A program made the translations under genes and the position numbers. A DNA stretch of 64,000 bases, from positions 179,068 through 243,067 of the forward strand of contig JAFGNJ010000019.1 of NCBI GenBank assembly GCA_016927065.1. The letters run 5' to 3'. Below the pieces are notes generated by a model. The model was not told the DNA's origin. It did no database searches and saw only the letters and a list, made by a program, of their open reading frames with translations. Source of the DNA: Deltaproteobacteria bacterium (GTDB taxonomy: Bacteria > Desulfobacterota > B13-G15 > RBG-16-54-18). Positions 3,779 through 55,736 of the stretch are shown in pieces. Positions within the stretch are counted from its first letter, which is position 1. Every line of letters starts with the position of its first letter.

Positions 3779-3819
3779 CGAACTAAAATAAAAATGAAAG
3801 AAAAGGAGGTAAACAGGAT

Positions 3820-4971
3820 ATGTCATTAGATTGGGTGCCTCGAGAAGGCGGAAAGAAAGATCATGATCGGTACGGCAAGGAACACTGGGGGGCCATGGAC
3901 AAACCCCCATGCGTCGTGTACGAAAAGAGACCCCTCAAGGATCCTCAGGGCAATGTCATTGACGGTCTCTATGTTTCGTGGGTAATCATGAATAATCCGG
4001 CCCAGTACAACTCCTATACCACCGAGATGGTCAAAGGCGTCATCGCAGGTATGGAGAATTCTTCAACTGATCGCGAGGTGGTGGCCACCATTTTTACCGG
4101 CGTCGGCCCCTATTCCTTCTGCACCGGCGGCAACACCAAAGAGTACTCAGAGTACTACAGCAGCCGTCCCGACGAGTATGGCCAGTACATGGAACTATTC
4201 AACAATATGGTGGATTCTATCCTGATGTGTAAAAAGCCCGTGATCTGCCGGGTCAATGGAATGCGAGTCGCCGGCGGTCAGGAAATAGGTATGGCATGTG
4301 ATCTTGCCATTTCTTCGGACCTTGCCATTTACGGGCAGGCCGGTCCTCGCCACGGTTCATCGCCTGCTGGTGGAAGCTCTGACTTCCTACCCTGGTATTT
4401 GGGAATCGAGGACGCCATGTGGAGCTGTGTGAGCTGTGAGATGTGGAGCGCCTACAAGATGAAGGCAAAGACACTTATCTCTAAATGCGTCCCTGTGCTC
4501 AAAGACGACAAAGGGAAGTGGGTACGCAATCCTCAGGTCATTACCGATAAGTGGGTTGATGACGGTGAGATCGTGTACGGCGAATTTAAGTCCGGCGATG
4601 CGTTTAAAGAGGCTCGCGGTTGGGTCAATGAGAAACTCAAAAATAATGACTTCGATTTCGAACTCCTGGATAAGGAAGTGGATAAGATAGTCTGGACCTT
4701 CGCCAATCTCTTCCCGGGCTGTCTGATCAAAGCCGTCGACGAAGTCCGCGCCAAAAAGAAGTTCTTCTGGGATTATTCCAAGAACTACAACAGGCATTGG
4801 CTAGCAGCGAACATGGGCGCTGAGGCATTCCTCGGGTTCGGAGCCTTCAATACGAAGAAGATCACCGGCACGGATACCATCGACTTCATCAAGTATCGGC
4901 AGGGAATTGCTGAGAGCACGATGATGAACGAAGAGTTCTTTGAGAAAGTGCTGGGAAAACCACAGAAATAA
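3820..4971 (+). CDS. oah: 6-oxocyclohex-1-ene-1-carbonyl-CoA hydrolase (ring-opening; BamA/Oah)
   Basis: This 383-residue crotonase-superfamily protein has an N-terminal extension (about 40 residues) and a C-terminal extension relative to enoyl-CoA hydratases, as is typical of Oah/BamA. Oxyanion-hole and active-site segments are visible around GVGPYSFCTGGNTKEY and NGMRVAGGQEIGMACDL. The enzyme adds water and cleaves the alicyclic ring to give 3-hydroxypimelyl-CoA. Its gene is widely used as a marker of anaerobic aromatic degradation. It is the last gene of the operon, with an AAAGGAGG ribosome-binding site ahead of the ATG at 3820 and a strong hairpin downstream. Confidence 0.93.
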   Translation: MSLDWVPREGGKKDHDRYGKEHWGAMDKPPCVVYEKRPLKDPQGNVIDGLYVSWVIMNNPAQYNSYTTEMVKGVIAGMENSSTDREVVATIFTGVGPYSFCTGGNTKEYSEYYSSRPDEYGQYMELFNNMVDSILMCKKPVICRVNGMRVAGGQEIGMACDLAISSDLAIYGQAGPRHGSSPAGGSSDFLPWYLGIEDAMWSCVSCEMWSAYKMKAKTLISKCVPVLKDDKGKWVRNPQVITDKWVDDGEIVYGEFKSGDAFKEARGWVNEKLKNNDFDFELLDKEVDKIVWTFANLFPGCLIKAVDEVRAKKKFFWDYSKNYNRHWLAANMGAEAFLGFGAFNTKKITGTDTIDFIKYRQGIAESTMMNEEFFEKVLGKPQK

Positions 4972-13437: not shown

Positions 13438-13473
13438 TTTTGTGTAACAATAATGGAGGGGACTGCTGTGTGT

Positions 13474-15246
13474 TCAGACCTTCGGCAGGTGCAGGGTAAA
13501 TACGCTCCCTTTTCCGAGAGTGCTCTCAACCGTAACACGGCCGCCATGGGCTTGTGCAATGTGCTTAACAATGGCCAGTCCCAAGCCCGTGCCACCGAGA
13601 TCTCGACTCCTTCCCTTGTCAACACGATAGAAGCGCTCGAAGAGCCTGGGCAGATGCTCCGGGGCAATACCGACTCCATGATCTCTGACCTTAACGACAA
13701 CTTCGTCAGAGTTTCTGGCTATCTCAATCTCTACCGCTGTACCCGGCTCGCTGTATTTTATAGCATTATCGAGGAGGTTACCTATGGCCTGTTTGAGCAG
13801 TCGGGAGTTGGCCATAATTACTATTTTATTGTTGCAGTTCAAAATTAGCTTTATTTCTCGTTCCCGCGCCTTTATATCATAATCTACAACGGCAGCTTCG
13901 AGAATGCGTCTTAAATTCTCTTTCGTGAGTTGAATCTCCCCTCTTTCTGCATCTTGTTCAATGCGCGAGAGACTCAAGAGATCATCAACAATTGCATTTA
14001 ACAGATCCGACTGCTTTAAAACGATCTCGAGGAACTTTTGGACATTTTTTTTATCGCCGAGCGCCCCTTCTTTTAATGTCTCTACATACCCTTTGATAGA
14101 AGTGATTGGAGTCTTTAGCTCATGTGACACATTGGCCACAAACTCACGCCTTATATTCTCGAGCTGACGCATCCTCGTTATATCGTTGAGCACGACGAGG
14201 GCGCCGATTTTCTTTCTGTTGCTATCATGCAGCAACGTACCGTTGAGTTGGAGAAATTTATTCTCAGGACCGTGGAGGACAATTTCTCCTTCAGCAGGTC
14301 CTTTCCCCATCAGGACGCCGCTGAGGAAACGTTGGATATCGGCGTTTCTAATGACCTCCTGAATAGTATGACCTTTTGCTGAAGACAAGTCGATCTCCAA
14401 AAAAAATCCGGCAGCCTGGTTAAACGTAACAATCCGTTCCTCCGAGTCAACTGCCAATACCCCTTCACGCATAGCGGAGAGGATGGTCCCTAACTCGTTC
14501 CGTTGCTCAGTGACCATGCGAATTTTTTCGCCGAGTTGATGTGCCATGTGATTCAGTACATCAGCGAGACTACCGAGTTCTTCGGAATCTGGGACGAGCA
14601 ATTTATGGTCAAATGTACCTTCAGCAAATCGCTGAGCACCTTTCTTCATTTCCTCTATGGGTTGACTGATGCGACGGGTAATATAGAGACTTACCACAGC
14701 AGCCAAAAGAATCAACAATATTCCGGCGAGGGCGATCTTCCAATAGATGGAGGCAAGAGTCGCATCGATCTCGCTCACCGGCACGGATGTTCTCACCACA
14801 CCAGCGATCTCACCTTCTTTCTCGAGGGGTATGGCAACGTACATCATCTCTTGCTGCAAGGTATCACTGTAACGGGTAAAAACTCCTTTGCTCCCTCTCA
14901 AAGCAGCCTTTACCTCCGGGCGCCCAGCGTGATTCTCCATCTGCTGAGGGTCTTCATCGGAATCCCCCACTACTTCACCAGTGGGAAGGATTAATGTTAC
15001 GCGTGTTGACGTTTCTTTGCCGATTGTTTTACACAGCTCATCAAGAGATGTTTGATTTTCCTTGCTAAAAGATGCCGCAACATCCCTCCCGATGAGATGC
15101 GCCCTGACGGTAAGGTCCTCAGCGGTCTTACGTAAATAGAACTTTTTGAATGTTGTGGAGGCATAGATGCCCACGATAAGAATGGAAAAAAGAATGATCA
15201 CAAGATAAACCGGATAGAGTTTCCAAATGAGCTTTTTTCTCCTCAT
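13474..15246 (-). CDS. phoR: Phosphate regulon sensor histidine kinase PhoR
   Basis: A membrane histidine kinase of 590 residues from the ATG at 15246; a longer frame to 15300 would overlap phoB by 50 bp. Order of parts: N-terminal transmembrane helix, periplasmic sensor of about 130 residues, second helix, HAMP, PAS-like domain (ILSAMREGVLAVDSEERIV), dimerisation/phosphoacceptor box VSHELKTPITSIKGY, then the ATPase domain with NLLDNAIKYS and GTGLGLAIVKHI. The periplasmic domain is larger than in E. coli PhoR and like those of Gram-positive and deltaproteobacterial PhoR. It phosphorylates PhoB, encoded just upstream. Confidence 0.9.
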   Translation of the reverse strand: MRRKKLIWKLYPVYLVIILFSILIVGIYASTTFKKFYLRKTAEDLTVRAHLIGRDVAASFSKENQTSLDELCKTIGKETSTRVTLILPTGEVVGDSDEDPQQMENHAGRPEVKAALRGSKGVFTRYSDTLQQEMMYVAIPLEKEGEIAGVVRTSVPVSEIDATLASIYWKIALAGILLILLAAVVSLYITRRISQPIEEMKKGAQRFAEGTFDHKLLVPDSEELGSLADVLNHMAHQLGEKIRMVTEQRNELGTILSAMREGVLAVDSEERIVTFNQAAGFFLEIDLSSAKGHTIQEVIRNADIQRFLSGVLMGKGPAEGEIVLHGPENKFLQLNGTLLHDSNRKKIGALVVLNDITRMRQLENIRREFVANVSHELKTPITSIKGYVETLKEGALGDKKNVQKFLEIVLKQSDLLNAIVDDLLSLSRIEQDAERGEIQLTKENLRRILEAAVVDYDIKAREREIKLILNCNNKIVIMANSRLLKQAIGNLLDNAIKYSEPGTAVEIEIARNSDEVVVKVRDHGVGIAPEHLPRLFERFYRVDKGRSRDLGGTGLGLAIVKHIAQAHGGRVTVESTLGKGSVFTLHLPKV

Positions 15247-44148: not shown

Positions 44149-45272
44149 AAGTCCTCCAGCTGATAACGAGACTCGATAAGGGTGGCGCTCCTCGGGTATT
44201 CCTCCAACTGATCAGAGGCCTCACGGAACTGGGTATAGAGATCGTTATGGCCTCCGGCCCTTCTCAACAACCCGAGGAAGACCCAGAGGAGTTTTCTCAG
44301 AGGCTCCATATTCCGTATCACCCCCTCCCCCACCTGTACCGCGATATCGCCCCTCTGCATGATCTCCTCTCCCTGTTTGAAATCATCGCCCTCATCCGCA
44401 GAGAGCGACCAACGCTCCTCCACACCCACACCACCAAAGGGGGAATCCTGGGGAGGATTGCTGGACGGATGACCCGCACCAAAACCATCCACACACCCCA
44501 CGGCCACCTCTTCTACGGATACTTCGGCAAGGGGAAAGAAGGGCTCTACATCTTTCTCGAGCGTTTGGCTGCCAGACTCTGCGAGCGCATTATCACCATC
44601 TCCGAGGACGAACGAAGGGCATACCTGAAGAAGGGAATCGGCGACGAGCACAAGGTAGTTACTATTTACAATGGAATAGATATGGACAGGTTCCCAGGTG
44701 ATGGAAAGAAGGTGAGAACTGAACTGGGGATCGCACAGAAAACGCCTCTGGTAGGTTTTGTGGGGAGATTGGAGGAAATAAAAGGACCTGATCGATTTGT
44801 GGAGGCCGCAAAGCATATAAAGATCACTTCCCCCCAGACCCACTTCGTCATGGTGGGAGATGGTCCGATGAAAGAAGAACTCCTGAAGATGGCCGAGGGC
44901 ATCTCGGACCTCCACTTTGTAGGGTATCGTGAGGACATCCCCGACCTCATCGCTGCCTTTGACATTATGCTCATCCCATCCCTAAACGACGGATTCAACT
45001 TGGCTGCGGTAGAGGCAATGGCCTCTGCCATACCTGTCGTTGGGACGGCGGTCGGCGGACTCCCCGAGGTGGTGGGAGACGGGGGTATCCTTGTAAACCC
45101 CGGAGATACGGAGAGGATGCCCCAGGAGGCCGTGACCCTCCTCAACTCATCCAGACTCAGGAGGGAGATGGGAGCGAAGGGGAGAAAGCGCACGGAGGAC
45201 CTATTCGACTGGAACGTGTGCCTTCAAAGGACTATCGACCTCTACCGCGAGGTCTGCGGGGAAACCGGATGA
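44145..45272 (+). CDS. Glycosyltransferase family 4
   Basis: A 375-residue GT-B enzyme with a GTG start overlapping the upstream stop. The N-terminal domain has MKVLQLITRLDKGGAPRVFLQL and THTTKGGILGRIAGR, a pattern seen in GT4 enzymes acting just after WecA/WbpL-type transferases (for example PglA/EpsF). The donor domain has LVGFVGRLEEIKGPDRFVEAA and a terminal EX7E-type segment (SLNDGFNLAAVEAMASAIPVV). In that segment the first Glu position reads Asp/Asn, which may alter retaining catalysis. It overlaps the next gene by 4 bp. Confidence 0.88.
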   Translation: MKVLQLITRLDKGGAPRVFLQLIRGLTELGIEIVMASGPSQQPEEDPEEFSQRLHIPYHPLPHLYRDIAPLHDLLSLFEIIALIRRERPTLLHTHTTKGGILGRIAGRMTRTKTIHTPHGHLFYGYFGKGKEGLYIFLERLAARLCERIITISEDERRAYLKKGIGDEHKVVTIYNGIDMDRFPGDGKKVRTELGIAQKTPLVGFVGRLEEIKGPDRFVEAAKHIKITSPQTHFVMVGDGPMKEELLKMAEGISDLHFVGYREDIPDLIAAFDIMLIPSLNDGFNLAAVEAMASAIPVVGTAVGGLPEVVGDGGILVNPGDTERMPQEAVTLLNSSRLRREMGAKGRKRTEDLFDWNVCLQRTIDLYREVCGETG

Positions 45273-46099
45273 AGCGGGAACTCACTTTCTATCAAACGGC
45301 CTCCCAGAATCTCATCCTCATCCACCACCTGCGGGAGGTGACGGAACGGCTCAAAAAGACCGGCCCCGAGATCATCTTCTTCAGAGGAATAAGCCTTTTG
45401 GGAGATGTCTACCCCGCATTGGGGGATCGCCCCATGCTCGATGCGGACATCCTGGTCCGGGAACGGGACGTGGAGCAGCTCAAGGATATCCTACGGGGAC
45501 TGGGATGGGGGGAGGCCGAGCCAGGGGTCTTTGATAGCAATGGCCTCTCACTCGATCTCCACACTTCCTTTCTCACCCCTATACGCACAGTCCTGGCGAA
45601 CGCTTGTCTGAAGGTCTCTATGGATGAGGTCTTTCAACGAGGCATCATCAAACAATTGGACGTAATAGAAATTAAAATCCCTTGCCCGGAGCACCTCTTT
45701 ATCTCAACGGCCATCCACCTCCAGAGCCACTCTTTCGGATCTGAGAAGGGATGGGAAGATCTGGTCAGGATAAAAGAACACTATTGGCTCTCCGATGAGG
45801 CAATACGCACCGAGGCTAAACGGATGGGTGCTGAGCACACCCTTAATTACCTCAGTTGTCTACGGCCGGACATCTTTCCATCTTGGAGAAAAAAACTATC
45901 TCTCGGTGAACAATGCATCATTAAAAGAATAAAGAAAGGAACAATGAATCCAAACTTCGGCGACCTCCTCTTCCTCTTTCAATCAAAGAGAAAGGGGAAG
46001 GCCATGCAGGAAATCTTTTTTCCCAACGGCTTCTCTCTCAGGATTATTGGCGACAGGCTCTGGAAGTGCCTGAGGCTCCTCAAGGATACCCTCACGTGA
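45269..46099 (+). CDS. Nucleotidyltransferase-fold protein (PF14907-like)
   Basis: About 276 residues from the ATG at 45269, which overlaps the upstream glycosyltransferase stop by 4 bp. The core motif LLGDVYPALGDRPMLDADILV contains the D-x-D (DAD) metal site of the nucleotidyltransferase superfamily, and SLDLHTSFL holds the later acidic/His segment. Uncharacterised proteins of this kind commonly sit with HPr-kinase-like and PqqD-like genes in peptide-modification loci, such as lasso peptide clusters. A role as first gene of the peptide system is therefore plausible, though it is coupled to the glycan gene. Its substrate is unknown. Confidence 0.75.
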   Translation: MKRELTFYQTASQNLILIHHLREVTERLKKTGPEIIFFRGISLLGDVYPALGDRPMLDADILVRERDVEQLKDILRGLGWGEAEPGVFDSNGLSLDLHTSFLTPIRTVLANACLKVSMDEVFQRGIIKQLDVIEIKIPCPEHLFISTAIHLQSHSFGSEKGWEDLVRIKEHYWLSDEAIRTEAKRMGAEHTLNYLSCLRPDIFPSWRKKLSLGEQCIIKRIKKGTMNPNFGDLLFLFQSKRKGKAMQEIFFPNGFSLRIIGDRLWKCLRLLKDTLT

Positions 46100-46142
46100 T
46101 CAAGGCTCAAATAAAAACTGTGACATTTGAAATCAGTGAGAG

Positions 46143-46176
46143 TTAGTTGGATTTCCCGCGCCTTGCGGTCAACTAA
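46143..46176 (+). repeat. Two-tier inverted repeat before the peptide operon
   Basis: TTAGTTG (46143-46149) pairs with CAACTAA (46170-46176), and within it CCGC (46156-46159) pairs with GCGG (46165-46168). There is no T-run after it, so it does not look like a terminator. A TATAAT (46192-46197) follows 15 bp later, so it may be an operator or RNA structure at the start of the peptide operon. The -35 region is poor. Confidence 0.4.
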
Positions 46177-46224
46177 ATGAGGTGATAAAATTATAATATA
46201 TTACACAAGTTTTAAAGGGGATCA

Positions 46225-47244
46225 GTGCAAGGAAAGGTGGAAAAACCTCGGCTTTTAGACCATCGCTATTATCAAATAGCCGGTATCACTATCCGCCTCG
46301 AATCGGACTTGCCCATAACAGATACGACGTTCCACCCTAAATTCAAACATTTTGAGGTACATAGACCTGGCAAGGACACCATTACCATCAGACACCACTT
46401 CTTCATGCCTGATCTGAGCAAATGGAACATGGGGAAAGAGGTTTATCGCAAGCCCCCGTGGGCCATCTACAAAAAGGGACCCTCATGGGTCTATGTAGGA
46501 ATTTCAGGAGGAGGCATATGGGGGGCGTTCAAGTGTCTGTTGTCCAGAATAGGGCACCGCCTCTATACCCTTAAGATGAACCCACACCAGAAAAAAGGAA
46601 AAGTAAAAAATACCGCTTTGCGCCTGATTAAAGAAGGCCATATTAAACAACTAGCGATATTTAACCATGACTATAGCAATGGAAGGATATACAATAAAGC
46701 TAAGAGGTTTTTCTATAGGGGCAACTTCCCTTCCCTCTCCCTCTTTCCCACCGACCAGGTCCTCCTTGCCCAGGTCTTGGCCGAAAGGGAGGGTTGTTAT
46801 ATCCATGCAAGCGGCCTGGTGCTTAACGGCAAGGGACTCCTCTTTGTGGGGCATTCAAGCGCGGGGAAGTCCACCATGGCGATGATGTTGAAAGATCAAG
46901 CAAAAATTCTATGCGACGACCGGATGATTGTAAGGAGGTGGCCGGATGGCTTCAAGATCCATGGAACCTGGAGTCATGGTGATGTTTCGGATGTTGCGGC
47001 AGATTCCGCGCCGTTGAAGGCCATTCTTTTTTTGAAACAGGACCGGGAAAACCAACTCATCCCGATTGACCACAAGCAGGAAATCAACAGAAGACTTCTG
47101 GCCTGTCTGATAAAGCCCCTTGTTACCGCAGAGTGGTGGGAGCGAATGCTTGTCCTGATAGATACAATGGCCCAAGAAGTCCCCTGCTATTCCCTTCACT
47201 TTAATAAAGATGGAGATGTCATAGATCTTTTAAGGCATCTCTAA
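46225..47244 (+). CDS. HPr kinase-like P-loop protein (ScmC/HprK-related)
   Basis: 339 residues with a GTG start behind AAAGGGG. The C-terminal half is HprK-like: HASGLVL (residues 194-200), Walker A GHSSAGKST (209-217) and CDDR (230-233), the phosphotransfer acid region. The N-terminal 190 residues match no domain I know. In lasso peptide clusters such kinases phosphorylate the precursor's C-terminal hydroxyl residue. Both precursor-like peptides here end in Thr, which would fit, but the link is inference. I recall a similar gene (ScmC) in the 'SynChlorMet' radical SAM cassette. Confidence 0.75.
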   Translation: MQGKVEKPRLLDHRYYQIAGITIRLESDLPITDTTFHPKFKHFEVHRPGKDTITIRHHFFMPDLSKWNMGKEVYRKPPWAIYKKGPSWVYVGISGGGIWGAFKCLLSRIGHRLYTLKMNPHQKKGKVKNTALRLIKEGHIKQLAIFNHDYSNGRIYNKAKRFFYRGNFPSLSLFPTDQVLLAQVLAEREGCYIHASGLVLNGKGLLFVGHSSAGKSTMAMMLKDQAKILCDDRMIVRRWPDGFKIHGTWSHGDVSDVAADSAPLKAILFLKQDRENQLIPIDHKQEINRRLLACLIKPLVTAEWWERMLVLIDTMAQEVPCYSLHFNKDGDVIDLLRHL

Positions 47245-47298
47245 TCGAATTAACGTTTAGCTTAGCCTGTTTAATTTTTCAGGTTATGGCAAGAAAGC

Positions 47299-48534
47299 AT
47301 GGCCAATAAAGATTCTTATAGCATTAAAGTAAGCGCCGACGATGCCTCTCTGTGGAAGGTTAACCCTCCCCTGCTCGAGTCGCTTGACATGGAGCTCACC
47401 GAACGCTGCAACAATAACTGCATCCACTGCTACATCAACCTGCCTACTGACGACCTGAATGCCAAAAAAAAAGAGCTTTCGACGGAGGAAATACAGGCGA
47501 TCCTTCAAGAGGCTGTCTCTCTCGGCTGTCTCACAGTGCGATTCACAGGAGGGGAACCCCTCTTGCGGGAAGATTTTGAAGACCTCTATAGCTTTGCCCG
47601 CAAACTCGGCCTTCGGGTAGCCCTTTTTACCAACGCCACCTTGATCACCGCCGCCCTGGCCAAGGTATTTGTACGCACCCCGCCCCTCATGCCTATAGAA
47701 ATCACCCTCTACGGAATGACGAGGAACTCCTATGAGACAATCACCAGGGTCCCGGGTTCTTTTAAAGCTGCGTGGAGGGGTATAAATCTGTTATTAGAAT
47801 ATCAGGTCCCGTTTGTGGTCACGGGTGTGCTCCTTCCACCTAACAGAGAAGAAATAGAGGAGTTTGAATCATGGGCCACCACCATCCCCTGGATGTATAC
47901 AGCACCGTCATACTCTATTCTTTTTGACCTCCGCGCCCGCCGCGACTCTAAACAAAAAAATCAACTCATCAAGGGGCTCAGACTCACACCAGAAGATGCA
48001 GTAGCATTCTTGTCCAGGAAACAGGAGAAATACCTGCAAGAGATGAGGGAGTTTTGTGTTAAATTTACCAGACCCCAGGGAAACAACATCTTTTCCTGCG
48101 GGGCAGGGATAAGAGGCGGATGCGTCGATGCCTACGGTTATTTCCAACCGTGTATGCTGCTGAGGCACCCGGATACTGTCTACGATTTAAAAAAGGGTTC
48201 CCTCAAAGATGCCCTGAAGAATTTTTTTCCAAAAATAAGAAATATAAAAACCAAAAACACCGACTACTTAAACCGCTGTGCCCGCTGTGTTTTGCAGGGC
48301 CTCTGTGAGCAGTGCCCGGCTCGGTCATGGATGGAACATGGCACACTGGATACGCCGGTAGAGTATCAGTGTGAGATCGCCCACGCGCAGGCAACGGCCT
48401 TGGGTTTGCTTGAGGAAGGTGAGCGGGCCTGGGAGATAAAAAACTGGAAAGAAAGGATACGGAATTTTTCAGGGGGTACGCCGACCTATGAAAAAAAGAA
48501 ACCATGCAAAAATCAAGTTATGCAAGAGGGTTGA
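47299..48534 (+). CDS. Radical SAM/SPASM peptide-modifying enzyme (ScmE/ScmF-like)
   Basis: 411 residues. The [4Fe-4S] SAM motif is C37-x3-C41-x2-C44 in ERCNNNCIHCYINLP, and RFTGGEPLLRE follows. The C-terminal SPASM domain has CGAGIRGGCVDAYGYFQPC and a CARCVLQGLCEQCPAR cluster for auxiliary iron-sulfur clusters. It resembles PqqE-like enzymes that crosslink or modify ribosomal peptides. It is paralogous to the gene at 50413 (same cysteine positions, same start motif). Neighbouring PqqD-like and peptide genes make a RiPP maturase the best reading. The chemistry is unknown. Confidence 0.9.
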   Translation: MANKDSYSIKVSADDASLWKVNPPLLESLDMELTERCNNNCIHCYINLPTDDLNAKKKELSTEEIQAILQEAVSLGCLTVRFTGGEPLLREDFEDLYSFARKLGLRVALFTNATLITAALAKVFVRTPPLMPIEITLYGMTRNSYETITRVPGSFKAAWRGINLLLEYQVPFVVTGVLLPPNREEIEEFESWATTIPWMYTAPSYSILFDLRARRDSKQKNQLIKGLRLTPEDAVAFLSRKQEKYLQEMREFCVKFTRPQGNNIFSCGAGIRGGCVDAYGYFQPCMLLRHPDTVYDLKKGSLKDALKNFFPKIRNIKTKNTDYLNRCARCVLQGLCEQCPARSWMEHGTLDTPVEYQCEIAHAQATALGLLEEGERAWEIKNWKERIRNFSGGTPTYEKKKPCKNQVMQEG

Positions 48535-48592
48535 CAAATTTCTGACATATGCAGCAGTTTAACGTTACCAATGAAGAGCGTAATCCTTGAGC

Positions 48593-49495
48593 ATGATGTC
48601 TCCATTTGTAAGATTTCCCACAATATTTTACATCGAACCCACGAATGACTGCAATCTGAGTTGCATTATGTGTCCCAGAAAGAAGAACGGGAAAGCGGTG
48701 GGGTATATGTCATTCGACCTGTTTTGCAATGTCGTGGATCAGCTCATCGATCAAAAGATACTGCAGGTAAGTCTACACCTAACCGGCGAGCCCCTGTTGC
48801 ATCCTCGGATCGCGGAAATGGTAAGGTATGCAAAAAAAGGGGGGCTGCCTTATGTAAGATTCGCTACCAACGCCACCCTGCTTAACGAGGACTCAGCTAA
48901 AGACCTCATAGAATCGGGATTGGATAGCCTTACCATATCCATGGATTCCTCCACTGCCCCGTACTATTGCTCGGGGCCAACGGGGAAAGATCTCTTCGCT
49001 GGCCTAGATCAAAACGTCCGGAGGCTGATTAGGCTCAAAAACCGGCATGGTAGCAATTTCCCCGAAGTCCAGATGCAGATCATCCGTATGGAGCAGACAC
49101 AAGGTCTGATAGACGAATTCGTGACGAGATGGCAGGGTATTGCCGATCAGGTCACAGTGCAACCGCTTTTATCCTGGGCTGGGCACATCAAGGCTCCAAA
49201 GAAAAGGGGGCGGCGTCGATTGATCTGCATGAATCACCTGACTCAAGGGGTGGTGCAGTGGGATGGGGATGTTTCATTCTGCTGCCTCTACATTGACAGC
49301 CGGGGCGATTCGGAGGGGGTCCTCGGAAATGCGACGCATACCTCCTTAGAGGATATCTTCTTGGGTACAAGGCGGCGGAAGATCATCGAAGCCCAACTGC
49401 GAGGAAATTACGATGCAGTCCCCTATTGCAAAAATTGTCCTGATTGGAATGATTTTCTGGATTGTCTTCAAACAGGGGAGCCACATACACTATAA
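48593..49495 (+). CDS. Radical SAM protein with short SPASM-like C-terminus
   Basis: About 300 residues from one of two adjacent ATGs (48593); a TTG at 48587 is also possible. The cluster motif is CNLSCIMC (C20, C24, C27) after YIEPTND. The C-terminus has FCCLYIDSRGD and CKNCPDW, a reduced SPASM-type cluster site. It is of a different subgroup from the paralogous pair around it and shorter. It may perform a second modification of the same peptide or of a cofactor. Confidence 0.82.
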   Translation: MMSPFVRFPTIFYIEPTNDCNLSCIMCPRKKNGKAVGYMSFDLFCNVVDQLIDQKILQVSLHLTGEPLLHPRIAEMVRYAKKGGLPYVRFATNATLLNEDSAKDLIESGLDSLTISMDSSTAPYYCSGPTGKDLFAGLDQNVRRLIRLKNRHGSNFPEVQMQIIRMEQTQGLIDEFVTRWQGIADQVTVQPLLSWAGHIKAPKKRGRRRLICMNHLTQGVVQWDGDVSFCCLYIDSRGDSEGVLGNATHTSLEDIFLGTRRRKIIEAQLRGNYDAVPYCKNCPDWNDFLDCLQTGEPHTL

Positions 49496-49569
49496 AGATT
49501 CCTTGTACACTTCGTGAAGATATGTGTTATCCTGTGATACACACCAAGAAACTGTAAAGGAGGCCCGCA

Positions 49570-49881
49570 ATGAAAGCCAAGATCAACCTTGACGCAACCT
49601 ACGTTCAATCGGAGGACCTAGTGAGCAGGGAGATTGAGGGAGAACTGATCATCGTCCCCCTGGTTGCCGGCATGGGGGATATGGAGGACGAACTCTTTAC
49701 CCTGAATGAGACCGGAAGGGCCGTATGGGCAAAGCTGGACGGCAAAAAGAGCTTGAAGACGGTGGCAAAGGAACTCTCTGCGGAGTTTGAGGCACCTCCA
49801 GGAGAGATCGAAAGGGATGTGACCGGACTGGCAGAGGAACTCCTCAAGAGAAAGATGATCGTTAAAGCCTCAAAGAAGTGA
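49570..49881 (+). CDS. PqqD-family peptide chaperone (RiPP recognition element)
   Basis: 103 residues with the PqqD winged-helix pattern: LVSREIEGELIIVPL, then FTLNETGRAVWAKLDGKKSL and a helical LAEELLKRKMIV. PqqD-type proteins bind the leader of a precursor peptide and present it to the radical SAM enzyme. The call is supported by its place between three radical SAM genes and upstream of the peptide genes. An AAAGGAGG ribosome-binding site precedes the ATG. Confidence 0.88.
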   Translation: MKAKINLDATYVQSEDLVSREIEGELIIVPLVAGMGDMEDELFTLNETGRAVWAKLDGKKSLKTVAKELSAEFEAPPGEIERDVTGLAEELLKRKMIVKASKK

Positions 49882-49897
49882 TATAAAATCTGCTTCA

Positions 49898-50416
49898 ATG
49901 GTCGCCTCACCTGATACTCAGTTTAAGCCAGTCCTTGGTACTAAGAAGGGAAAGGAGCTTTTTCTCTCTAGCCAGCATCTTGAGGAACTCCTCAAAGGTG
50001 TGCTCGACAAAGGGGCGTGCTTCAGGTTTCAAGGCAAGGGTCTCAGCATGTCCCCTTTTATCAAAGACGGCGATATCCTCACCATTGCCCCATTGCCGAC
50101 TGCTTCCCCCGGTCTCGGTGATGTGGTGGTCTTTACGCATCCCAATACCGGAAAGCTCATCATCCATCGAGTAATCAAAAAAGGGGGAGGTTCTTACCTT
50201 ACCAAGGGGGATAATGTCCCTGAAGGAGACGGCCTTATCTCCAGGGCAGCAATCGTGGGGCGTGTGATAAAGGTGGAGAGAAATGGGAAGCACATCTCGC
50301 TCGGTCTCGGCCCAGAGCGTTTTTTAATAGCCTCCTTGACCCGTAGAGGGCTTTTATTTTTGCTACGGCCAGTCTGGAGGCTTGTTCGTTTTTTTTATAA
50401 GGGATCAGTCCGGTGA
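49898..50416 (+). CDS. S26-family signal peptidase, Ser/His type (Sec11/SipW-like)
   Basis: 172 residues. The catalytic serine is in GKGLSMSPF (Ser50, the GxSMxP motif). The general base segment reads KLIIHRVIKKG, with His90 where bacterial Lep enzymes have Lys, as in ER-type and SipW peptidases, and TKGDNVPEGDG follows as the conserved Asp box. A hydrophobic basic C-terminus (LLFLLRPVWRLVRFFYKG) could be a membrane anchor. In this cassette it may remove the leader or mature the exported peptide. It lies 16 bp after the PqqD-like gene. Confidence 0.85.
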   Translation: MVASPDTQFKPVLGTKKGKELFLSSQHLEELLKGVLDKGACFRFQGKGLSMSPFIKDGDILTIAPLPTASPGLGDVVVFTHPNTGKLIIHRVIKKGGGSYLTKGDNVPEGDGLISRAAIVGRVIKVERNGKHISLGLGPERFLIASLTRRGLLFLLRPVWRLVRFFYKGSVR

Positions 50417-51528
50417 ATGAATCGTATGTTTCAACCCGTGACCTACATGATCTTTCCCTCTGGGACAAGATGCGCGGAAAGAGGGCGCTCACCTCTTTTG
50501 ACCTGGAGATTACCGCCCGCTGCAACAACAACTGCCGTCACTGTTACATCAACCTCCCGGCTGGAGACAAGGAGGCAAAAGAAAAGGAACTCTCTTTAGA
50601 GGAAATAGGGGAAATAGGCACTGAGGCCGTCGCACTCGGTGCCGTGTGGTGCCTCATCACTGGCGGTGAGCCCCTCTTGCGGGATGATTTTTCCGATATC
50701 TATCTCTCGCTCAAGAAAAAGGGCCTTTTGATCTCTGTCTTTACCAATGCCACCCTCGTAACAAAAGAGCATATCAAACTGTTCAAGGCGTATCCGCCGA
50801 GGGATATCGAGGTCTCGGTCTATGGGGTGAGCAAGGAATCGTACGAGAGTGTAACGCGGAGGCCAGGCTCTTTTGCGGCCTTTCGACGGGGGCTCGATCT
50901 ACTTTTCGAAAACGGCCTTAACGTGCGCCTCAAGGCCATGGCCCTGCGCTCCAATCTTCATGAGCAGCCGGAGATTGCCCGCTTCTGCAAAGAGCAAACA
51001 AAGGACTACTTCCGTTTTGACCCCTTCTTACACCTGAGATATGACAGGAACCCCTCTAGAAATGCAGAGATAATGGCCGAAAGGCTCTCTCCTGAGGAGA
51101 TCGTCGCCCTCGAGCAATCGGATCCTGAGCGGTTCCAGGCCTTGGCAGAAGGGTGCGATAAGCTTATCCTTCCACAGTCTGCCTATCCCCCAGGCAACCA
51201 TCTCTTTCAGTGCGGCGCAGGAACAGCAAGTTTCAGCCTCAGCTACGATGGTCTTTTTCGCCTCTGTCCATCCCTCTGGCACCCGGATTGTGTCTATGAC
51301 GTGAAACAAGGAACCCTTACCAAGGCCTGGCAAACCTTCGTCCCCCAGGTGCGGGAAATGCGATCGGAAAGCAGAGAGTTTTTAGATATGTGCCGGAAAT
51401 GCCCTTTTATCAATCTCTGTATGTGGTGTCCTGCGCATGCCTATCTTGAAACCGGAGAGCTGGATGCGCCGGTTGACTATTTCTGCCAGGTCGCCCATGC
51501 CAGGGCCGCAGCCCTTCACAGAGCGTGA
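50413..51528 (+). CDS. Radical SAM/SPASM peptide-modifying enzyme (ScmE/ScmF-like paralogue)
   Basis: 371 residues with a GTG start that overlaps the peptidase stop. The cluster motif is C37-x3-C41-x2-C44 (ARCNNNCRHCYINLP), followed by LITGGEPLLRDDF. The C-terminal SPASM domain has FQCGAGTASFSLSYDGLFRLC and MCRKCPFINLCMWCPA. It is clearly homologous to the gene at 47299 along its whole length (EVSVYGVSKESYESVT against EITLYGMTRNSYETIT). It ends about 170 bp before the first precursor-like peptide. Confidence 0.9.
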   Translation: MNESYVSTRDLHDLSLWDKMRGKRALTSFDLEITARCNNNCRHCYINLPAGDKEAKEKELSLEEIGEIGTEAVALGAVWCLITGGEPLLRDDFSDIYLSLKKKGLLISVFTNATLVTKEHIKLFKAYPPRDIEVSVYGVSKESYESVTRRPGSFAAFRRGLDLLFENGLNVRLKAMALRSNLHEQPEIARFCKEQTKDYFRFDPFLHLRYDRNPSRNAEIMAERLSPEEIVALEQSDPERFQALAEGCDKLILPQSAYPPGNHLFQCGAGTASFSLSYDGLFRLCPSLWHPDCVYDVKQGTLTKAWQTFVPQVREMRSESREFLDMCRKCPFINLCMWCPAHAYLETGELDAPVDYFCQVAHARAAALHRA

Positions 51529-51695
51529 GTTTTTTATGGCACAGGGACGTAAAATGTGCTATATTTAAAAGAGACACAACGAGTTCTAAAAGTATTTTGT
51601 ATGGGGAATTTTAGTAAACAGCTATGAGCAAAGAATAACAATTAGTGAACATAACATTGCTTCCAATTCATAGTAATAAGAGGAGGGTATTAAAG

Positions 51696-51866
51696 ATGAA
51701 TAAGAAGGTCTGGACAAAGCCCAAGTTGATAGTGTTGTTTAAAGGAAAACCAGAGGAAGCGGTGCTCCAGGCGTGTAAGAGACAGGACATAGGGGGTGCA
51801 TATACAAACACCTGTGTGTTTACTGTGTGGGGGCAGACTAACCGTTGTAGTACCATTGGCACTTAG
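51696..51866 (+). CDS. Precursor-like peptide 1 (RiPP leader/core, 56 residues)
   Basis: 56 residues with an AGGAGG ribosome-binding site 9 bp before the ATG; a longer in-frame start at 51645 is unlikely. A conserved leader KVWTKPKLIVLFKGKPEE, then AVLQACK, ends at C27. The C-terminal part has C40, W45 and C51, ending CSTIGT. There is no signal peptide and no other domain. The leader is 21 of 28 residues identical to the peptide at 54331. This pattern, with neighbouring PqqD-like and radical SAM genes, indicates a peptide precursor. The modified residues are unknown. Confidence 0.8.
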   Translation: MNKKVWTKPKLIVLFKGKPEEAVLQACKRQDIGGAYTNTCVFTVWGQTNRCSTIGT

Positions 51867-51908
51867 ATTTTTTGTGCGCGAGGGGGGATCTGAAATAGAC
51901 AAGCGCAT
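51867..51908 (+). repeat. Downstream direct repeat of the peptide cassette, copy 1
   Basis: 42 bp directly after the first peptide's stop codon, 37 of 42 identical to 54495-54536 after the second. The copy includes TGCGC...GCGCA, which can form a 5-bp stem; in copy 2 the C-to-T change keeps a G-U pair. It may be a conserved 3' untranslated structure or part of a duplicated cassette. Confidence 0.75.
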
Positions 51909-52062
51909 GAACTCAATCACATGACCTCTCAACTCACGCTCACGATACAAATAGATGAAGGCACCTTTTATCTATTTCCGGACACACGCCACAATTGACA
52001 TCATCGTGATCTGAAAAGCATTATCATAAACACAATAACTATGTAATAACAATGACCTACGC

Positions 52063-52929
52063 ATGAATCCGTTAATCCAACTATATGATTTCCATAAAAA
52101 TGAGTTCAAGTTAAAAAACAATACGTTTCTCCGTCTATTCGAAGAATTACTCTCCACTCCCCCGTGTTCCATACTTGAATGTTCGGCTCAGATCTCACCC
52201 AAAGGTACGCATGGAGCGAGGTTCCGATTAGGCTATGGACACCAAGATATCCAAGAGGGTCTTTCTGCAATCCATAATTTTTTGGGAAATATTGCAGGTT
52301 GTAAAAACGTTCAGTTAAACAGTAGTATGCTGTCTCAAATCGTTAACAATGACCTCGACGTATCAAGGGCTATGGCTATAGGTGTAGGTCTCGATTATAC
52401 AACGAACATCATTGATTCGAAGGTCAAGTTTTATGTCCTTATCAGGGAATACCCAGAAAAAGTAAATCAGATCCTCTCGTTACATCCGCCCCTCGACAGC
52501 ATCCGTGATTACCTAATCCATGAGGAATTTTGCTTTGGGATTAATATGTATTTCGATGGGAGTACCAGTATAGAGATATATCCTTATCTTGATCAGCATG
52601 ACCTCAATAATACCGCACTCATGATCAAACTAAAACTTAGAGATGTCCCACGGGTATTTATTGAGAAGTGCGATCAATTATATGTCTCCTTTGAGGACGA
52701 TGGAAGACGTGTATTGCATTTTACTCCGCAAAGTTCCACTAAATTTGTTCGTTCAATAAATAACCGCCAGCTCAGTTTAGCCTACAGCAGTGTACAAATC
52801 TTAAACTATCTTTTAAACCATTCATACCATAAAGAAACTACAGCAATTTTTTCTCTGAAAGAAGACGAAATACTATCAGAGAACATACAAAATATAAATC
52901 TGCTGTACAATTTAACATCCAGGGCTTAG
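52063..52929 (+). CDS. Peptide prenyltransferase-like protein of the cyanobactin PatF/TruF/LynF (ABBA) family
   Basis: 288 residues, close to the roughly 300 of the cyanobactin family. From memory of PatF/LynF, matching segments are DLDVSR (98-102), GLDYTTNIIDSKVK (109-122), IREYPEKV (127-134), GINMYFDGSTSIEIYPYL (159-176), and C-terminal ENIQNINLLYNL (273-284), which corresponds to the ENIRLYYY ending of PatF. These enzymes transfer dimethylallyl from DMAPP to Tyr, Ser, Thr, Trp or Arg of ribosomal peptides. The likely acceptor here is one of the adjacent peptides. The gene is A+T-rich compared with its neighbours and has a weak ribosome-binding site. No family search was run. Confidence 0.82.
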   Translation: MNPLIQLYDFHKNEFKLKNNTFLRLFEELLSTPPCSILECSAQISPKGTHGARFRLGYGHQDIQEGLSAIHNFLGNIAGCKNVQLNSSMLSQIVNNDLDVSRAMAIGVGLDYTTNIIDSKVKFYVLIREYPEKVNQILSLHPPLDSIRDYLIHEEFCFGINMYFDGSTSIEIYPYLDQHDLNNTALMIKLKLRDVPRVFIEKCDQLYVSFEDDGRRVLHFTPQSSTKFVRSINNRQLSLAYSSVQILNYLLNHSYHKETTAIFSLKEDEILSENIQNINLLYNLTSRA

Positions 52930-53030
52930 ACAAAAAATCTAGAGACCCCGCTGCTGTGGAAGCTATGCCCCTCAGATGGTTATAGCAACACAAGGGTAGT
53001 CTGCATCTTCTGAAAACGGCAGATAGAATT

Positions 53031-54158
53031 ATGGGTAGATCGAGCGATACAGAATATGACGTCATCGTAGCCGGTTCAGGGCCCGCCGGCATCTCGACGG
53101 CCATCCACTTGACCAAGCTCCTGCCGTCAATGAAAAATCGACTGATCGTTTTGGAGAAGGAGACCCATCCCCGAAAGAAAATCTGTGGGGGTGGAGTTAG
53201 TGCATATGCTGATTACTGGTTACAGCGTCTTGGCATCAAGATGATGATACCATCCTTAGCGCTTAAAACAACCCGTCTTGCCATCGATCATGACGGCTAT
53301 GTGGAGTATTGTTTTGATGTTGACGGTTTCCGAACAGTGAAACGAGAAGAATTTGATGAGGCGTTATTAAAATCGGCCCTGGATATGGATATCGTCGTTG
53401 CTCAGGATGAAGCAGTAGTTTCTTTTTCTGACAGCGATGAAGAGATCGTTGTACAAACTCCCAAGCGAAGCCTTACTACCAGCATCCTGGTTGGCGCCGA
53501 TGGGGCTCAAAGCATTATACGAAGGCAGCTCTACAAAAATGCTGGGATGCGCGGGGCAAGAAACATAGCCAGGACGCTCCGTTTTATGACGCCAGTCGAT
53601 AACCCTAACACCGTAGAACTGGAAGCGATAATAGATTTCTCTTGTACATTCCGCAATGGAGTTCGAGGCTATGCATGGTCCTTTCCGGTGACAATTCAGG
53701 GCCAAGCATGGATTAACACGGGGATCTGTGATTTCCACCCCTCCCAAAAACAAAGATCTTTACTCAAAAAAATCCTCGCGGAATTCTTGGCCGCACGGGA
53801 TATTTCACTAGATCAAGGTCGTATTGAAGGGTGTCAGCTACGGTGGTTTCATCCCGAATCGATCTTCTCGGCCAACCGGGTGCTCCTGGTCGGTGACGCC
53901 GCGGGGATCGATCCTTTGTTGGGCGAAGGGATACCGTTTAGTTTAGGGTACGGGCACGTGGCAGCAAATTCAATCATTCAAGCATTCAAGAGTAAAGATT
54001 TTTCTTTTACGACATACAAAGAACAATTGTTGGAACATGAGCTCGGTCAAGAGCTGATGAATCGGTTACACTGGGCCGACAAATTGTATCGTTCATCCGG
54101 AACCAAGAACGCTAAAGACTTTTTATTGTCACTCTTCGCGCCCAACAAGAACGGCTGA
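53031..54158 (+). CDS. Geranylgeranyl reductase family FAD-dependent oxidoreductase
   Basis: 375 residues. FAD-binding GSGPAG (15-20), PRKKICGGGVS (47-57, the PRxKxCGGG geranylgeranyl reductase signature), VGADGA (154-159) and VGDAAGIDPLLGEGI (287-301) are all present. Enzymes of this group reduce isoprenyl double bonds, and relatives oxidise or halogenate aromatic rings. Its position directly after a prenyltransferase-like gene suggests that it reduces the prenyl group put on the peptide; this is inference. It could instead serve unrelated lipid or quinone chemistry. It lies 101 bp after the prenyltransferase gene. Confidence 0.85.
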   Translation: MGRSSDTEYDVIVAGSGPAGISTAIHLTKLLPSMKNRLIVLEKETHPRKKICGGGVSAYADYWLQRLGIKMMIPSLALKTTRLAIDHDGYVEYCFDVDGFRTVKREEFDEALLKSALDMDIVVAQDEAVVSFSDSDEEIVVQTPKRSLTTSILVGADGAQSIIRRQLYKNAGMRGARNIARTLRFMTPVDNPNTVELEAIIDFSCTFRNGVRGYAWSFPVTIQGQAWINTGICDFHPSQKQRSLLKKILAEFLAARDISLDQGRIEGCQLRWFHPESIFSANRVLLVGDAAGIDPLLGEGIPFSLGYGHVAANSIIQAFKSKDFSFTTYKEQLLEHELGQELMNRLHWADKLYRSSGTKNAKDFLLSLFAPNKNG

Positions 54159-54330
54159 ACGAGGTATCTAGATAGTCCCGAACGGGGATCCTTATTACAA
54201 ACAACCATAAAATAAGGTGCTTTTCACCGAAGGATGTGATATAATTTTTACTGATCGGATGCAGGTATAAATATGGTTTTGGGGGTGTACTCATTATCAT
54301 CAACACCTTAACAGCTCGGAGGCATAGCAG

Positions 54331-54492
54331 ATGAAGATCAAAGTCTGGTCAAAGCCCAAGTTGGTAGTGTTGGTCAAGGGGAGACCAGAGGAAGCGGTGC
54401 TTCAGGTGTGTAAGACACAGCATAGCAATGGCCCAACTGGCAACCACTGTAGGCATGGTTGGCGCAATTGTTCTCTTATTCGTCCTACCTAG
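54331..54492 (+). CDS. Precursor-like peptide 2 (RiPP leader/core, 53 residues)
   Basis: A short gene with a CGGAGG ribosome-binding site 8 bp upstream. It encodes KVWSKPKLVVLVKGRPEE, then AVLQVCK, ending at C27, followed by a divergent tail containing C40, W44 and C47 and ending CSLIRPT. The Cys at position 40 is the same as in peptide 1, and Trp and the last Cys are near-equivalent. It has no Tyr. It follows the flavoprotein gene by about 170 bp and is convergent with the radical SAM gene at 54573. It is too short for ordinary gene finding. Confidence 0.8.
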   Translation: MKIKVWSKPKLVVLVKGRPEEAVLQVCKTQHSNGPTGNHCRHGWRNCSLIRPT

Positions 54493-54494
54493 GG

Positions 54495-54536
54495 ATTTTT
54501 ATTGCGTGAGGCGGGATCTGGAATAGACAAGCGCAT
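54495..54536 (+). repeat. Downstream direct repeat of the peptide cassette, copy 2
   Basis: Second copy of the 42-bp element described at 51867-51908, starting 2 bp after the stop codon of peptide 2. Divergences from copy 1 are at positions 7, 8, 13, 18 and 27 of the element. It ends 36 bp before the end of the convergent radical SAM gene. Confidence 0.75.
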
Positions 54537-54572
54537 CCACTTAGTAACAACAAGCCAACTTCAAAACCACCG

Positions 54573-55736
54573 CTAAAATCTACTAAACTCCGTACACCGG
54601 GGGCAGACCGGGAAATGGCCCCTCTCCTTGAGGAGGCGGCGGAACCGCACCGCCCTCTCGCCATTCCATATCTCTTTGAAGGGGGTTTCGAGCAAATTCC
54701 CCACCACATACCCCAGGCTGAGGCAGGGCTTGACCATCCCGTCCGGCAGCACATAGGCCACCATCCAGGGACTCAGACATCTGCGTTTATACGAGGTGGG
54801 AAAAAAATCAAAAGAATTATAATACGTCCTGATCTCCTCATCAGTAAAATTAGGGTAAAAGAAGGCTGGCACAGTATTCTTGCCTCCTTCAATCTTGCGC
54901 CTCTGCTCAATGATCCGTTCAGGATCTATACGGGGGAGTTCATCCGTGATGAACCCGGCCCAATCAGGCGAATTGCAGGCCAGGGCCGCCTGGGTGATCC
55001 GCTCTGTTTCCGCAAAGGCCCCCTGATTGACGAAGATGAGGTGATGAAAGGTGATGCTCTGGGCCCCGAACTGGGCCGCCTCGTCAACGATATCATCCAG
55101 CATCGTGTGGTTCTCCTCCCAGATGACCGTATTGACGTTTACTGCGGGCCTTTTCTTCCCATATCGTTCCTTCGCTGCCTGGAGATGCTGAAAACCCTCC
55201 AAAGCCCTGCGGAATACCCCCTTCCCCCCCCGAATGACATCGTGTACCTCGGCGGGACCATCCAGGGAGAAAATGATCTCATCCAGGCCCAGTTGCACCG
55301 CCTCCTCGGCCTTTTTCTTGAGCAGTATGCCGTTACTGATCATGTTGCAGCGAAGCCCAACCTCTTTGATCCGCTTGACCACCTCCCCCCATTGGGGGTG
55401 GAGCAGGGGTTCTCCGCCAAAGAGGGTGATGGTGGGGTGAAAGGACTTCACTTCCTTGATAAGATCCTCAATCAGTGGAAGCTCCAGGTACCTCCTCGTG
55501 ACGGTAGAGGGGAGACCTTTTAAGCTCCCCCGCTCCCCCCACTGTCCACACATCTTGCAATGTAGATTGCATCGATAGGTAAGCAGGAGGGAAATGGTCT
55601 CAGGCGGTGCGCTCCTTCCATCGAGAAAGCGATAGCTCAAGGAGGATAAGAGCCGCATCCGGGCTGCTCGTAAGGCATAGGCCGGCTGCTGAGAGGCCTT
55701 GGCAATAAGCCTCCTGATGTTTTTATGGGGTATCAT
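54573..55736 (-). CDS. Radical SAM/SPASM protein, convergent with peptide 2
   Basis: 387 residues. Cluster motif C56-x3-C60-x2-C63 in TYRCNLHCKMC, with ITLFGGEPLLHPQW. The C-terminal domain has RRCLSPWMVAYVLPDGMVKPC and CPRCTEF, a SPASM-like auxiliary cluster site. It is distinct from the paralogous pair upstream. It could be a further maturase of the peptide or an unrelated MoaA/HpnH-type enzyme. The proximity to peptide 2 favours the former but the opposite orientation weakens it. Confidence 0.85.
   Translation of the reverse strand: MIPHKNIRRLIAKASQQPAYALRAARMRLLSSLSYRFLDGRSAPPETISLLLTYRCNLHCKMCGQWGERGSLKGLPSTVTRRYLELPLIEDLIKEVKSFHPTITLFGGEPLLHPQWGEVVKRIKEVGLRCNMISNGILLKKKAEEAVQLGLDEIIFSLDGPAEVHDVIRGGKGVFRRALEGFQHLQAAKERYGKKRPAVNVNTVIWEENHTMLDDIVDEAAQFGAQSITFHHLIFVNQGAFAETERITQAALACNSPDWAGFITDELPRIDPERIIEQRRKIEGGKNTVPAFFYPNFTDEEIRTYYNSFDFFPTSYKRRCLSPWMVAYVLPDGMVKPCLSLGYVVGNLLETPFKEIWNGERAVRFRRLLKERGHFPVCPRCTEFSRF

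Follow-up and report, generated by a model that had tools for sequence, protein, structure and literature searches.

A conserved, modular RiPP-type locus combining radical SAM enzymes, a PatF-type prenyltransferase and a geranylgeranyl-reductase-like flavoprotein

The 64,000-nucleotide stretch analysed here ('the window', positions 179068-243067 of contig JAFGNJ010000019.1) belongs to a Deltaproteobacteria bacterium (assembly GCA_016927065.1; 2.48 Mb, 31 contigs) and carries a locus of the kind that yields ribosomally synthesized and post-translationally modified peptides (RiPPs). In this locus, radical S-adenosylmethionine (SAM) enzymes and a PqqD-type protein stand together with a PatF-type prenyltransferase (PT), a geranylgeranyl-reductase-like (GGR-like) flavoprotein and two short peptides with a common leader. 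We found the system to be real, conserved and modular, and new as a combination. Judged from sequence, the two precursors probably give rise to a ribosomal peptide with cysteines cross-linked by radical SAM enzymes (rSAM), a prenylated aromatic residue in a loop, a saturated prenyl chain and a phosphorylated last Ser/Thr. An earlier note, made from the DNA letters alone, had proposed a locus joining these parts, and family matches as well as conserved gene order now support it. The genes it listed (a nucleotidyltransferase, an HPr-kinase-like (HprK-like) protein, radical SAM enzymes, a PqqD protein, a signal peptidase, a PT and a GGR-family enzyme) all lie where it had placed them and found family matches in Pfam and NCBIfam scans of ten locus genes and the two peptides (for the radical SAM and flavoprotein genes, the best 25 NCBIfam matches each).

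The leaders of peptides 1 and 2 are similar and 28 residues long each, with the form W.KPKL.VL..G.PEEAVL..CK, and a purine-rich ribosome-binding site lies ahead of both genes. This leader-sharing pair had been noticed before; we now find it kept in related loci. Using a precursor profile built from 7 peptides, we detected 81 proteins with the shared leader, peptide 1 of the window included. Codon comparison of 8 leaders gave a pS (synonymous) of 0.68 versus a pN (non-synonymous) of 0.12, indicating that the leader is under purifying selection. Thus the 81 leader-sharing proteins, the pS/pN of the leaders and the recurrent gene order place the locus beyond chance. Against NCBIfam, peptide 1 gave two matches (E about 0.07) and peptide 2 none; neither corresponds to an NCBIfam precursor family, and Pfam matched neither.

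Inspection by eye revealed that the sequence after the stop codon is common to both precursor genes of the window (51867-51920 and 54493-54546), as is the leader, while the core differs. The genes look as if they had been duplicated, with divergence confined to the core. The first bases downstream are also common to both genes of the peptide pair in locus L005. L043 (2719-2901), L045 (9479-9718), L046 (9373-9558), L049 (9684-9887), L050 (2882-3106) and L052 (9749-9958) each hold a precursor with this leader in a fetched stretch that gave no maturase match.

Within its own family, the locus occurs in the Deltaproteobacteria metagenome-assembled genomes (MAGs) RBG_16_54_11 and RBG_16_54_18. The search for the same gene order in other genomes, which the earlier note had suggested, recovered it in L005, L006, L007 (a partial contig), L008 and genome G292 (over two contigs). 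L005 and L006 hold the full gene set, save that a methyltransferase replaces rSAM2; the second peptide of L006 follows the first peptide and not the GGR gene. The order rSAM1-PqqD-S26-rSAM3-peptide-PT-GGR is kept in L007 and in L008, whose PT has 38% identity. In G292 a peptide ends one contig and PT (36%) plus GGR open another, which fits the same order, the contigs not being joined.

The precursor profile (E 1e-4) found 11 of the 395 genomes of the phylum, two of them weakly. Genomes G311, G385 and G347 encode HprK, rSAM1, PqqD, S26 and rSAM3 together with shared-leader precursors, the S26 gene of G347 lying some kilobases from the rest. Both G311 and G385 further encode a methyltransferase of the same type, along with a homologue of NTP_transf_5 (for G385, a weak BLAST match only). 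All three lack a PT, and a GGR relative at E 1e-40. Because these sister cassettes do without both, PT plus GGR most plausibly form an optional add-on to a broader RiPP-type cassette. Since G347 has five precursors spread over three contigs, one cassette may serve scattered precursors. G331 contains a partial cassette with no rSAM1 match. These sister cassettes had escaped the earlier note. So had the rule of a C-terminal Ser/Thr, with its connection to the HprK-like protein and the nucleotidyltransferase.

The last residue is Ser or Thr in 77 of the 81 precursors, and Ser plus Thr make up 21% of core residues. The four other ends belong to P0083 (an 86-residue frame overrunning the usual end), the short P0108 and P0139, and P0141. 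The rule also holds for 16 of the 17 precursors from loci without PT (a set that includes one precursor that could not be parsed and two distant cousins, L054 and L055). In the HprK-like protein, His194, Lys215, Asp231 and Asp232 are invariant in 12/12 aligned homologues. C-terminal Ser kinases of the lasso type likewise combine His-Lys-Asp-Asp with a fitting precursor end; we equated the residues with those of PadeK/ThcoK by order and kind, not by alignment. Phosphorylated lasso peptides offer a precedent for a kinase with a nucleotidyltransferase (excerpts of PMC9266682 and PMC8498205): paeninodin and pseudomycoidin share with our locus an HprK-like kinase with the same residue order, a nucleotidyltransferase partner and Ser-ending precursors. 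Unlike them, the locus uses radical SAM enzymes and also accepts Thr as last residue. We rejected membership among lasso peptides, as neither a B2 protease nor an asparagine-synthetase-like cyclase was matched among the ten scanned genes. NTP_transf_5 homologues were present in L005, L006, L041, L051 and L053, with PF14907 confirmed for L041 and L051. In three cassettes without PT, a single protein has a radical SAM domain with an HprK-like domain behind it; such fusions, 662-669 residues long, lie in L047 (8338-10347), L051 (5769-7757) and L053 (5472-7460).

PF04055 matched four locus proteins. The radical SAM set of the earlier note therefore stands as to family, but its second member, rSAM2 (48587-49495), lies outside the conserved set, its place in L005 and L006 being taken by the methyltransferase; an orthologue of the latter in the window's own genome was sought with two weak matches only (E about 1e-6). 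rSAM4 (E 1e-50) occurs in exactly the 3/8 family genomes that have the PT. rSAM1 and rSAM3 have the cysteines expected of radical SAM/SPASM enzymes: CX3CX2C (C37, 41, 44) and C267, 285, 327, 330, 336, 339 and 358 of rSAM1 are invariant in 8 aligned homologues, and ten radical SAM/SPASM cysteines of rSAM3 in 9. In L006 (6763-7933, RBG_16_54_18), rSAM3 is broken into two overlapping frames, a decayed gene or an assembly error. The S26/S24 protein scored 50.4 bits against TIGR02228, just below the cut-off of 51.85, and its Ser50 and Asp105 are invariant in 8 sequences.

An ordinary SynChlorMet (Scm) cassette, to which the earlier note had likened the locus, has the same types of genes (HprK-like protein, PqqD, two SPASM enzymes), and ScmC, ScmD, ScmE and ScmF gave weak matches. 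However, all four scored far under their cut-offs (38/125, 26.8/100, 91.2/400 and 79.6/400 bits), the peptides fit no NCBIfam precursor family, and Scm cassettes differ from the locus in its defined-leader, Ser/Thr-ending precursors and PT plus GGR add-on. We consider this assignment very improbable and rejected Scm membership.

The PT matched PF19156 with 88.8 bits, well above the cut-off of 28.8, so that PT and PqqD genes (Table 1) both passed the family test proposed for them. It adopts an ABBA fold like KgpF, LimF and PagF, with 20-24% identity to these and PirF, and its donor pocket appears sufficiently open to take a C10 or longer chain. PF11991, which had been named as the cyanobactin prenyltransferase family, is in fact Trp_DMAT; it had no match in the window's own genome, nor in control genomes, and the right families are PF19156 and TIGR04445. 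While a profile search with the single PT protein gave no relatives, one with an alignment gave five loci, and the PT was present in 5 of the 395 phylum genomes. A PT search returned 62 proteins including the query, the other 61 with 48-78% identity and mostly from jgi, ena or lgn sources. Unlike cyanobactin PTs, the PT of our locus adjoins radical SAM/PqqD genes. Among the ten scanned genes (best 25 NCBIfam matches for each radical SAM and flavoprotein gene), there was no match to a PatA/PatG-type cyanobactin protease, YcaO or lanthionine synthetase, and the two peptides matched no cyanobactin precursor in Pfam or NCBIfam. With no such protease or precursor matched in these scans, the locus was rejected as a cyanobactin cluster. 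Peptide prenylation is described in cyanobactins, lanthipeptides and lasso peptides (excerpt of PMC12715784); the lanthipeptide enzyme MppC, by report a peptide prenyltransferase, is likened from its description only.

Two other PT neighbourhoods were seen. In L013 (G041 C129, 5091-17515), the PT is accompanied by an ABC exporter, a fusion of S26 with NTP_transf_5 and a 345-residue protein that Pfam does not match. Sets of HprK, radical SAM and PqqD genes border this group, as do Cys-rich peptides with repeats, located on the minus strand at 3796-4002 and 13449-13682. In L009 (4818-18597), from an Omnitrophota MAG, a prenyltransferase matching PF19156 (100 bits, 29% identity) lies among six genes that match Radical_SAM, one of which also carries a B12-binding domain; a gene resembling diphthamide synthase is present too.

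If the PT attaches an isoprenoid, then the flavoprotein could reduce it. Among flavoprotein homologues, YxWxFP is conserved in 41/46 and Cys52 in 46/46; both the motif and an active-site Cys are GGR active-site features (excerpt of PMC12004948), and 3oz2 aligns with the flavoprotein at both. The window protein differs from GGRs (3oz2, 3atq) in lacking the Pro of the full PxxYxWxFP, in scoring below the TIGR02032 cut-off and in lying in a RiPP-type locus; the comparison with Bsr of Myxococcota is by description, not sequence. Alternatively, the flavoprotein may work in the manner of QhpG or PltA and oxidise, hydroxylate or halogenate Trp/Tyr of the peptide, prenylation and oxidation then being separate. 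By sequence, flavin halogenases indeed fit the GGR profile no worse than 3oz2 does, and by fold nearly as well. However, the motif reads WxWxIP in PltA and CmlS, GG-red-SF (TIGR02032) is a much better match (133.8 bits, although the cut-off of 158.8 was missed), and relatives of the flavoprotein go along with the PT. The host, which appears to be anaerobic, would also disfavour oxygen-dependent chemistry. We regard an oxidase or halogenase as unlikely, and QhpG membership was rejected, since the QhpG flavin monooxygenase model NF049967 gave 58.4 bits, far below its cut-off of 240.

We then related PT, GGR and precursors to each other through contigs of equal size, an indirect link (longest contig per cluster, best 120 of 314 GGR relatives). 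For this comparison, the 81 precursors were divided by score, after inspection, into group A (n=43) and group B (n=38). PT and GGR fell on equal-sized contigs in 23 cases, the window included. PT or GGR went with 20/43 group A versus 0/38 group B precursors, and a control with shifted sizes gave a mean of 0.96 and a maximum of 4 coincidences versus 19 observed. Among genomes, GGR relatives (E 1e-40) were found in 4/5 with PT versus 0/12 without. The 20/43 versus 0/38 split, the position of PT plus GGR directly after the precursor gene in L005-L008 (where PT identity falls as low as 38%) and a core composition that shifts with PT/GGR presence argue against a PT and flavoprotein that have a small molecule or lipid as substrate and are mere neighbours of a radical SAM RiPP cassette. 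Cyanobactin prenyltransferases can use small molecules (excerpt of PMC11002830), and sister genomes with the cassette lack both genes, so the RiPP itself does not need them; all in all, we hold this explanation to be quite unlikely.

The core itself points to where the prenyl group may sit. In group A without P0100, which has a single core Cys, Gly occupies position C1-6 in 39/42 and the loop between C1 and C2 contains W/Y/F in 41/42; without P0083, a Cys stands seven residues before the end in 37/42. A loop aromatic occurred in only 12/36 of group B (without P0108 and P0139). A loop aromatic is present in 25/27 precursors that go with a PT or GGR or come from PT loci, versus 7/16 from loci without PT (Fisher p 7e-4, kinship ignored). 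Thus the loop aromatic tracks the PT, whereas the C-terminal Ser/Thr and the Cys do not, since cassettes without PT keep them too. On the other side, the PT-linked P0081 (RHGSRP) and L006 peptide a (QRNPGRR) have no W/Y/F in the loop, and Arg instead. A prenyl group on a Cys thiol, Arg or the C-terminal Ser/Thr is therefore a less likely alternative, though one to be taken seriously.

Under the prenylated-peptide reading that we favour, PqqD would present the leader to rSAM1 and rSAM3, which most likely make thioether or other links from core C1 and C2 and thereby close the loop; C2 usually lies seven positions before the end. The PatF-type PT would prenylate the loop Trp/Tyr, and the GGR-like flavoprotein would hydrogenate the chain without needing oxygen. 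The HprK-like protein would serve as kinase of the last Ser/Thr, and the NTP_transf_5 protein may decorate this C-terminal phosphate with a sugar, as in pseudomycoidin. Finally, the S26/S24 protein would cut off the leader; rSAM2 and rSAM4 would be lineage-specific additions. The chemistry is what we infer from the genes, with prenyl site and reductase role as the least certain steps.

Besides the aromatic-free loops, the halogenase matches and the missed TIGR02032 cut-off, further points weigh against this reading. The PT reached 112.8 bits against TIGR04445 (LynF/TruF/PatF) over profile positions 4-281 of 282, below the cut-off of 140. The HprK-like protein missed those of TIGR04249 (125 bits) and PF07475 (33.3 bits), and its single PDB match by sequence (E 0.07) was no kinase. 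10/29 PT proteins on contigs of at least 5 kb had no equal-sized GGR contig among the best 120 of 314 GGR relatives. G041 has a PT (47% identity) without a GGR relative and other candidate precursors, two Cys-rich peptides beside HprK-like genes that do not end in Ser/Thr; one such G041 gene retains the four His/Lys/Asp/Asp residues. In G331, a precursor-like frame beside the cassette (L044 9876-10397, minus strand) ends in Tyr and has an altered leader end, perhaps as a decayed precursor. Moreover, radical SAM chemistry is not deducible from these sequences.

More tentatively, the locus may define a new, Deltaproteobacteria-type RiPP class: an amphiphilic lipopeptide with an rSAM macrocycle, a saturated isoprenoid on the Tyr/Trp of the loop and a phosphate, perhaps bearing a sugar, on the C-terminal Ser/Thr. 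The cassette behind it would be modular, with prenylation plus saturation as an option. Here a GGR-type reductase would for the first time act on a prenylated peptide, and a peptide PT on a radical SAM product. A literature search by title and opening lines of abstracts, with most subscription journals outside its reach, found no report joining these enzymes and none on SynChlorMet. A PT inside a radical SAM/PqqD locus with a reductase-like partner would be a new route to saturated lipopeptides, for which the sister cassettes without the pair provide a natural control. With the C-terminal Ser/Thr rule, a specific substrate that can be tested is at hand for the HprK-like genes of PqqD/radical SAM cassettes. 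The 81 peptides with the shared leader supply precursors for a cassette type hitherto annotated by domain only.

Table 1. Genes of the locus, with positions in the window.
Feature	Position	Strand	Evidence
NTP_transf_5 (PF14907) nucleotidyltransferase	45269..46099	+	PF14907 77.3 bits, cut-off 31.2
HprK-like protein	46225..47244	+	TIGR04249 38 bits and PF07475 20 bits, both below cut-off; conserved His/Lys/Asp/Asp
rSAM1, SPASM radical SAM enzyme	47299..48534	+	PF04055; invariant Cys
rSAM2, radical SAM with SPASM	48587..49495	+	PF04055, PF13186
PqqD-type protein, putative leader binder	49570..49881	+	PF05402 54.2 bits, cut-off 23.4
S26/S24 signal-peptidase-like protein, putative leader protease	49898..50416	+	PF00717 34.2 bits, cut-off 23.3
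rSAM3, SPASM radical SAM enzyme	50413..51528	+	PF04055; invariant Cys
Precursor peptide 1, 56 aa, core loop C-VFTVWGQTNR-C, last residue Thr	51696..51866	+	AGGAGG upstream
PatF/TruF-fold PT	52063..52929	+	PF19156, TIGR04445
GGR-like flavoprotein, putative prenyl-chain reductase	53031..54158	+	TIGR02032 match below cut-off
Precursor peptide 2, 53 aa, core loop C-RHGWRN-C, last residue Thr	54331..54492	+	GGAGG upstream
rSAM4, radical SAM with SPASM	54573..55736	-	PF04055, PF13186

The locus is flanked by a glycosyltransferase on one side and ysxC on the other, and all genes except rSAM4 lie on the plus strand. In L008, a sulfotransferase gene (4097-4930) lies immediately upstream of the cassette. 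Because it adjoins the cassette, sulfation may be an extra tailoring step there.

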